DNA of 48,784 bases from NCBI GenBank assembly GCA_945862025.1, contig CAMAWU010000006.1, positions 1 to 48,784 of the forward strand, read 5' to 3'. The position numbers were made by a program, and so were the translations under genes. Below are positions 27,199 through 47,700 of the stretch, piece after piece; within the stretch, counting starts at the first letter, position 1, and the number at the start of each line of letters is the position of its first letter. Source of the stretch: Ferrithrix thermotolerans DSM 19514. Its GTDB lineage: Bacteria > Actinomycetota > Acidimicrobiia > Acidimicrobiales > Ilumatobacteraceae. A model generated the notes under the pieces. It did not search any database, was not told where the DNA came from, and saw only the letters and a program-made list of their open reading frames with translations.

Positions 27199-28098
27199 TT
27201 AACGAGTCGGGCTTATTTTTATCGATGTCGTGACTGAGACCCCATCTTGGCTTGGCGAATCGCTGGATTTCGACAAAACGATCAGATCTCCTTGGCCGAT
27301 CTGTAGTTCGGTTGCAGCCGATCCACGATCTACGCAAATTGAAAGCATCCCATATGAGTCAACTACGAGCCCAATACCACTGCCGATTCGGTCGTAACTT
27401 CTCACGACTTTTAATGCCCTTACGACTGGTTCGCGCGTCGCACTCGCACCACTCATTAGTGAGCGAATTTCGACTCGCACTACTTCGCCAAAATCTGCAA
27501 CTTCATCTGGACCGATATTTAGTTGACAGTTACCAAAACGATCCACCCATGTAACTTCGCCATGCAACGAACCGTTTTCTTCCCGTGGCAACGGCACGAC
27601 ACCTGGCAACAACAAAGCAGGGTCAATCATTTCTCCGAGTTCGCTTAGATCAACACCATTACATAAATGCGCCGCAACTGGGCCAAAAATATCTCGCCCA
27701 GCAAAAGTTTCACCAGGGGCTACCAGATGATATTCAGGGTTAGTTAGACACACTGCTCTTCCAGCACCACCGGCAAGAGCAATCGCCATTGCCAACAAAC
27801 CATTATCTGGTCCGACGAAAACACCTTTGCCATCAGCGACTTCAACAGCGATCGCCCGGCGAGTTGAACCAACTCCTGGGTCAACAACTGCCAACACAAC
27901 ACCACTAGCGACATACGACACACAACGCGCTAAAGATAGTGATCCTGCGCGAACATCAAACGGTTCAATTTCATGTGTTAAGTCAACGACACGACATTGC
28001 GGAGCAATCTCGTAAATCACACTCTTCACGACGCCAACAAATTCGTCGCGTGTCCCATAGTCAGACAAAAAAGAAATCGTCGAATATTTATTTGACAT
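27199..28098 (-). CDS. SAM hydrolase / SAM hydroxide adenosyltransferase family (DUF62, chlorinase/fluorinase superfamily)
   Basis: ISFLSDYGTRDEFVGVVKSVIYEIAP, DLTHEIEPFDVRAGSL, AVVDPGVGSTRRAIAV, GVFVGPDNGLL, ETFAGRDIFGPVAAHL. Start set to ATG 28098 (MSNKYSTISF). Confidence 0.9.
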   Translation of the reverse strand: MSNKYSTISFLSDYGTRDEFVGVVKSVIYEIAPQCRVVDLTHEIEPFDVRAGSLSLARCVSYVASGVVLAVVDPGVGSTRRAIAVEVADGKGVFVGPDNGLLAMAIALAGGAGRAVCLTNPEYHLVAPGETFAGRDIFGPVAAHLCNGVDLSELGEMIDPALLLPGVVPLPREENGSLHGEVTWVDRFGNCQLNIGPDEVADFGEVVRVEIRSLMSGASATREPVVRALKVVRSYDRIGSGIGLVVDSYGMLSICVDRGSAATELQIGQGDLIVLSKSSDSPSQDGVSVTTSIKISPTR

Positions 28099-28121
28099 CA
28101 GCGTCTCACGATACTGATAAA

Positions 28122-28223
28122 CGTAAGAGCCGGTGCCAACCCCCCGACGGCACCGGCTCAAACGGCGCAACTCTTGCGAGCGCGACTCCCAGTTGGGGGG
28201 TTACCCCGCCCGGTGATCTTGCG
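28122..28223. ncRNA. Candidate structured RNA with loop-distal pseudoknot (leader of SAM-hydrolase gene or opposite-strand sRNA)
   Basis: Perfect 11-bp hairpin 28127-28137/28149-28159; its loop AACCCCCCGAC (28138-28148) complements GTTGGGGGGTT (28192-28202); closing stem 28122-28128/28217-28223; internal hairpin 28165-28183. Confidence 0.45.
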
Positions 28224-28331
28224 ACATTTCCACTCTCACTTTAGACACGATTAACAGGTATTGAACAATTTTTGCTAGAAATTATGTAGTTTTTAAAACC
28301 ACATAAATCATCTGGCTGTACCTATTTGTAC

Positions 28332-29126
28332 TCATTTGCCGAGCTGTTTACTGCGTGCGGTTGCTGCCTGCACTGCCCCCGCAATAATTTCAGCAAAATT
28401 CTTTTTCTCTAACTCGGCGATACCAGCCGCTGTCGTACCGTTTGGCGATGTAACATTTTTTCTTAATTCTTCTGGGCTTGAAGAACTCTGTGCAAGAAGA
28501 GCCGACGAACCAACTAGTAATTGTCTAACTAAAGTATCGGCAACTTCTGCAGACAGCCCTTGTTGTATTCCCGCAGCAATTAACGCTTCAGCCAGCAAGA
28601 AAATATATGCGGGGCCACTGCCCGACAAACCAGTCACCGCATCCAGCAGATTTTCTTCGACTTCAACAACTTTGCCAACGCTGCCGAGAATTTTTTTCGC
28701 CCACACAATCTGATCGGCTGAACATGTACTGCCAGCCGCCATCGCCGACACGCCTTGTCCAACTAGCGCAGGTGTATTTGGCATTGCTCGGACAACTGCA
28801 ATCGTCGCACCACATGCACTTCGAATAGACGCAATAGTTACTCCGGCAGCAATTGACAGCAACTGTTTGACACCAAAGTTGCTGAGTGTTAAACACACGT
28901 CGGCAACATCGTCAGGCTTCACGGCAACCACGACCGAGTCGCATTTTGGCATCTGTTCACAGATCACTGCCTCAGGGAAATCTTTTTGCAAAATTGCCCT
29001 ACGCTCTTGGCTCTTTTCAACTATTGCTAAATCACGAGGCGCCACAAATTTGTTGGCAATTAGACCACGGGCTAACGCTGCCCCCATGTTGCCGCCACCG
29101 AAAATAACTAAAGACAGTCGATTCAT
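28332..29126 (-). CDS. proC: Pyrroline-5-carboxylate reductase
   Basis: SLVIFGGGNMGAALARGL, VRAMPNTPALVGQGVSAM, DAVTGLSGSGPAYIFLLAEALI, NVTSPNGTTAAGI. Confidence 0.95.
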   Translation of the reverse strand: MNRLSLVIFGGGNMGAALARGLIANKFVAPRDLAIVEKSQERRAILQKDFPEAVICEQMPKCDSVVVAVKPDDVADVCLTLSNFGVKQLLSIAAGVTIASIRSACGATIAVVRAMPNTPALVGQGVSAMAAGSTCSADQIVWAKKILGSVGKVVEVEENLLDAVTGLSGSGPAYIFLLAEALIAAGIQQGLSAEVADTLVRQLLVGSSALLAQSSSSPEELRKNVTSPNGTTAAGIAELEKKNFAEIIAGAVQAATARSKQLGK

Positions 29127-47628: not shown

Positions 47629-47700
47629 GCCGGGGTAGCTCAGTGGCAGAGCAACCGCCTTGTAAGCGGTAGGTCGTGGGTTCAATCCCCACCCTCGGCT
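47629..47700 (+). tRNA. tRNA-Thr (anticodon TGT)
   Basis: GCCGGGG acceptor arm pairing CCTCGGC, D-arm GCTCAGTGGCAGAGC, anticodon arm ACCGC-CTTGTAA-GCGGT (anticodon 47661-47663), T-arm GTGGG-TTCAATC-CCCAC; CCA not encoded. Confidence 0.96.

Follow-up and report, generated by a model that had tools for sequence, protein, structure and literature searches.

The G-loop RNA, a candidate small RNA encoded upstream of DUF62 genes in the Ilumatobacteraceae

The window (the whole stretch of 48,784 nucleotides that was analyzed) contains, between proC and a gene for a SAM hydroxide adenosyltransferase (DUF62), a perfect GC-rich inverted repeat in otherwise AT-richer DNA. The question is whether this repeat is made into RNA, from which strand, and whether such an RNA would serve one of its neighbors or be a gene in its own right. 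Based on the comparisons below, the minus strand probably encodes an independent small RNA at this place, with a loop that most likely base-pairs with a C-rich partner RNA. We refer to it as the G-loop RNA. Its features, in window coordinates, are as follows.

27199..28098, minus strand: downstream gene, SAM hydroxide adenosyltransferase (DUF62; Pfam PF01887, PF20257)
28107..28231, minus strand: whole predicted small RNA, about 118-125 nt, both ends predicted (from the promoter-like box, the conserved -10 and the 3' hairpin in relatives)
28108..28113, minus strand: TATCGT, predicted to be the -10 box of the DUF62 gene, 9 nt 5' of the ATG and sharing bases with the 3' end of the small RNA
28127..28159, minus strand: P2, an 11-bp terminator-like hairpin (stem pair counts, covariation)
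28138..28148, minus strand: P2 loop, GUCGGGGGGUU on the RNA strand, the proposed seed (loop comparison, 79 loci)
28165..28183, minus strand: P1 hairpin, GCGC..GCAA..GCGC, its CGC/GCG pairs nearly invariant (alignment of relatives)
28186..28217, minus strand: P0, the 5' hairpin region, which differs among genera; GGGG-TAA-CCCC and AACCCCCCAAC in genera g1 and g5
28195..28200, minus strand: C6 tract on the RNA strand, complementary to the G6 loop and confined to g1 and g5 (the pseudoknot partner of the initial annotation)
28238..28243, minus strand: TAAAGT, predicted to be the -10 box of the small RNA, inside TGTCTAAAGT (20 of 20 g1 loci)
28332..29126, minus strand: upstream gene, proC, pyrroline-5-carboxylate reductase (Pfam PF14748, PF03807)

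A covarying hairpin with an invariant loop

The segments described in the initial annotation are all present in the window. The arms of the hairpin, GAGCCGGTGCC (28127-28137) and GGCACCGGCTC (28149-28159), enclose the loop AACCCCCCGAC (28138-28148); the segment complementary to the loop, GTTGGGGGGTT, occupies 28192-28202, GGGG-TTA-CCCC lies at 28197-28207, and the arms of a proposed closing stem, CGTAAGA and TCTTGCG, lie at 28122-28128 and 28217-28223. The closing stem overlaps the 11-bp stem by two bases, and only one of them can therefore form completely. Folding of the element is better than that of shuffled sequences on either strand (z of -2.75 for plus and -2.45 for minus).

A DNA search placed the element next to DUF62 genes across most of the Ilumatobacteraceae, and 63 loci were aligned. 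In these 63 sequences the P2 stem comprises 656 Watson-Crick pairs, 36 G-U pairs, no A-C pairs and one mismatch. Across the tested structure 98.6% of cells are paired, compared with 33-50% when the partner is slid. Changes on both sides occur at 9 pairs, a number reached by none of 500 shuffles, and in 59 cells, where shuffles gave 13.8. The small GCGC hairpin (P1), which had also been proposed from the sequence of the window, is confirmed by the same comparative data. The conserved structure is thereby shown at the level of sequence comparison, and so is the coding strand: given that the 36 wobbles are G-U, with no A-C, when read on the minus strand, we conclude that the RNA would be transcribed from that strand. 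The earlier argument for a plus-strand transcript was drawn from two wobbles in the closing stem, which is not conserved; by eye, in a listing of relatives, this stem and the GGGG/CCCC competitor are confined to g1 or its closest relatives and are not general features.

The loop hardly varies. Its 11 nt read (A/G)TCGGGGGGTT in 78 of 79 loci and TTCGGGGGGTT in the remaining one; across genera of very different GC content the consensus (A/G)UCGGGGGGUU is essentially invariant, with UUCGGGGGGUU as its sole exception. In the RNA of the window the G tract is predicted to be mostly unpaired, the central Gs being unpaired. Genus g1, to which the window belongs, and g5 are the only genera with an internal C6 tract complementary to the G6 loop; g3 has a weaker C5. 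The proposed switch between a pseudoknot and a competing hairpin thus has its pairing partner in two genera and does not hold as a general feature. No alternative fold is conserved; what is conserved is a simple hairpin with an invariant loop.

Distribution within the Ilumatobacteraceae

A covariance model (R1) was built from the 63-locus alignment. It detects the element in 139 of 151 Ilumatobacteraceae genomes and in 25 of 27 genera, with scores of up to 98 bits; the match in the window spans 28108-28213 (90.8 bits). Outside the family, where 397 genomes of the order and 247 of the phylum were searched, no R1 match scored higher than 36 bits. The best outside match (L131 in genome G116, 35.7 bits) and a second one from the same genus (L134 in G465) are terminator-like hairpins with G6 loops elsewhere in the genome, and were treated as convergent or chance. 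Both belong to family f27, and a 6C RNA that passes the Rfam cut-off (L219) is present in G116 as well.

A scan of 84,980 genomes with a pattern of the hairpin core returned at least 120 matches. The 80 matches listed carry labels of Ilumatobacteraceae, Acidimicrobiales or generic Actinobacteria, with a few that are probably wrong, and include a named isolate of the family, Desertimonas flava. Public MAG records labelled Bifidobacterium breve (L297, L305, L308, L329), Ferrithrix thermotolerans DSM 19514 (L295, L350) and Acidobacteria (L343, L359) are probably mislabelled, since all of them have the Ilumatobacteraceae hairpin with proC and DUF62 as neighbors.

In the 151 family genomes the element is nearly always present in a single copy at a syntenic place, and viral contigs gave no match. 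These observations bear on whether the palindrome is a DNA-level repeat or mobile element rather than an RNA, as a perfect GC-rich inverted repeat in AT-richer surroundings might suggest. Neither the single syntenic copy nor the lack of a viral match fits such a repeat, and the asymmetry of wobbles between the strands, unexpected of a DNA palindrome, largely refutes it; we regard this reading as scarcely credible.

At gathering thresholds, the sole Rfam match in the window is a tRNA gene elsewhere (47629-47700, plus strand). The best near-matches to the element itself have E = 2-5 and concern implausible families, and 12 relatives of the element gave no match at E<=1. These searches of the window and the relatives bear out the initial annotation, in which the candidate structured RNA was not recognized as a standard riboswitch, and place the element outside known families; the alignment adds conservation and covariation of the 11-bp hairpin. 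We found no earlier description of the G-loop RNA in open-licence papers. As an RNA, it is well supported by these comparisons as a candidate new small-RNA family specific to the Ilumatobacteraceae. No paper on a small RNA of Acidimicrobiia was found among the open-licence literature, and the small RNAs of this class appear almost unstudied. Within the Ilumatobacteraceae, whose members live in lakes, soils and the sea, the G-loop RNA is nearly universal and offers a defined, testable candidate regulator in the cultured relatives Ilumatobacter and Desertimonas.

Promoters, 3' end and neighboring genes

Upstream of the element, 42 loci match a 16-mer box within two changes, TGTGAC-N-CTTTTCTCA or a variant ending in CTTTTCACA. 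It is followed by TAnnnT after 15 nt (25 loci), 16 nt (16 loci) or 17 nt (one locus). Genus g1 is without the 16-mer box yet keeps TGTCTAAAGT in 20 of 20 loci. The -35/-10-like pair of the initial annotation was near the right place, and the conserved predicted -10 is TAAAGT (28243-28238, minus strand). The 16-mer box resembles the CRP-type site TGTGA-N6-TCACA, and a CRP/GlxR-like box of this form precedes the RNA in most genera (for example L072, L085, L110). The distance from its center to the predicted start, about 35 bases, is shorter than that of the classical -41.5, and because of this proximity the box may serve as a -35 region or as a repressor site rather than a CRP-type site. At the sequence level, comparison of loci thus shows a promoter-like motif, a box with fixed spacing.

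The 3' end is less uniform. A T-run of at least 4 follows P2 in 27 of 61 loci, and about 40% of the 61 loci, mainly GC-rich, have no T-run of at least 3 at this place. The terminator T-run is therefore weak in GC-rich genomes and termination is uncertain there.

The usual order is proC, element, DUF62, complete in 70 of the 80 named contigs among the matches listed. Given that proC lies upstream on the same strand and adjoins the element in nearly all loci, the hairpin could be a 3' UTR or terminator of proC with no independent function. Such a role is very improbable in our view: proC is separated from the element by the promoter-like box, the element is kept in one genome in which proC is inverted (L108), and a plain terminator has no need of an invariant 11-nt loop.

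The relation to the downstream gene requires closer consideration. The initial annotation also weighed a minus-strand leader of the DUF62 gene, and the element could be a cis-acting leader (a riboswitch or attenuator), with P2 as a regulated terminator and a ligand related to SAM, adenosine or methionine. A series of hairpins 5' of a SAM-metabolizing gene is indeed what SAM and other riboswitches look like, P2 is terminator-like, and most loci have DUF62 as the following gene. The strongest point still in favor of action in cis is that the downstream gene is co-directional in every locus examined, 21-135 nt from the element. However, the downstream gene appears to have its own start. Of 61 loci, 41 have TAnnnT at a distance of 6-10 nt ahead of the start of this gene, compared with a mean of 2.6 and a maximum of 7 in shuffled sequences; the observed count may be slightly favored by start codons hand-picked among in-frame candidates. 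A TANNNT motif some 12 bp ahead of the start has been described as characteristic of actinobacterial leaderless genes (PMC3160421). Thus, based on this leaderless-type -10, the DUF62 message probably starts 3' of the element. Moreover, the element persists where DUF62 is displaced by a racemase inserted between the two (g13) or replaced by a CaiB-type gene (g23), and, unlike riboswitches, it consists of simple hairpins with no conserved alternative fold, an invariant loop and no Rfam riboswitch match. The minus strand thus stands; we consider a cis-acting leader unlikely, and some read-through into DUF62, with a minor role in cis, may occur. At the level of sequence, comparison of loci shows the element to be independent of its neighbors, and its status as an independent gene is fairly well supported, its function being inferred from the loop alone.

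The G6 loop and candidate partners

In the small-RNA reading that we favor, RNA polymerase would start just 5' of the first hairpin, from the conserved promoter, and transcription would stop at or near P2, giving an RNA of 75-120 nt in which two to four hairpins follow one another directly. The 3'-most of these would present, on its covarying stem, the invariant and mostly unpaired G6 loop, and the loop would form a short, GC-only pairing with a C-rich partner, either an mRNA or another small RNA. The transcript, both of its ends and this action of the loop are predictions from sequence.

An invariant loop upon a covarying stem is equally the signature of a protein-binding site, the RNA then being a decoy or scaffold for an RNA-binding protein. 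The target counts fit this: besides the element itself, the 10-nt candidate mRNA target of the loop, AACCCCCCGA, has only 0-2 further sites per genome in g1, and these counts indicate no conserved site or extended complement there. On the other side, there is no candidate protein, and a G6 homopolymer is a typical base-pairing seed that mirrors the C tracts of 6C and B11 (PMC10470900). We hold a protein site to be improbable and return to pairing with a C-rich RNA.

Two known systems are similar to the G-loop RNA in their features. RosA of Bacillus subtilis is a G-rich sponge of C-rich small RNAs (PMC8216469), about 229 nt long, with three G-rich regions of which the first two are predicted to be single-stranded. 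These regions are complementary to C-rich regions of other small RNAs, as the G6 loop may be, and transcription of RosA under the carbon-catabolite regulator CcpA is loosely comparable to the CRP-like box of the G-loop RNA (PMC8216469). The G-loop RNA differs in having one G6 tract, in the loop of a terminator hairpin; the likeness drawn here is one of features, and a sponge role is putative. The second system, 6C (Rfam RF01066), is actinobacterial and of similar size, with hairpins whose homopolymer-rich loops act as seeds. Its mycobacterial homologue B11 represses a message that contains a G6 tract, and requires its C-rich loops to do so (PMC10470900); in Corynebacterium 6C RNA has been reported in the network of GlxR, a CRP-type regulator (PMC4046766). 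The loops are C6 in 6C and G6 on the transcribed strand of the G-loop RNA. As 6C members have two C6-loop hairpins, the G-loop RNA, with its G6 loop and no 6C match, is not a member of RF01066.

A search of the family with the Rfam 6C model gave 32-39 bits in three genomes, below the cut-off of 47, and these matches led to a second RNA, the C-loop RNA. It has two or three hairpins with CCCCC loops, the last one terminator-like, and is distantly 6C-like; the third hairpin reads GGTTGAGAGGCCCCG..CCCCC..CGGGGCCTTTCCC (L265, L220-L222, L225-L248). In the loci read it adjoins a gene for a LysR-type regulator. A second model (R2) detects it in 131 of 151 family genomes, including that of the window (G000:C5:50513-50623, L265), and found nothing convincing elsewhere in the order; R2 pairs only the terminal hairpin, and may therefore have missed copies in divergent genera.

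Of the 151 family genomes, 120 have both RNAs. The same cell would thus contain an exposed G tract, predicted to be mostly unpaired, and a C-rich small RNA complementary to it. Pairing of the G6 loop with the C5 loop would involve about six pairs, at -12 kcal/mol for the loops alone. The two may therefore form a family-confined RNA pair, in which the G-loop RNA, under its CRP-like promoter, would capture the C-loop RNA by a kissing interaction of the two loops, with about six G-C/G-U pairs, and act as a family-wide sponge of a 6C-like regulator. We find the idea attractive, yet put it forward tentatively and rather doubt it. The complementarity is that of a homopolymer, and the strong conservation of both loops leaves no covariation by which their pairing could be tested. 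The idea is further weakened because the two RNAs do not strictly co-occur: genus g9 (G036, G058, G073, G086 and others) keeps the G-loop RNA, and the C-loop RNA is undetectable in 12 of its 12 sampled genomes. If the pairing is true, it would mean that Actinobacteria have an equivalent of the RosA sponge, and would open a way to the role of 6C-like RNA.

In g1 (L265, L246) and g5 (L263, L232) the last hairpin of the C-loop RNA is without its CCCCC loop, and these are the same genera in which the G-loop RNA has an internal C6 tract. The coincidence concerns one clade only and is possibly due to chance, since g4 (L238), which has no internal C6 tract, likewise has a reduced last loop.
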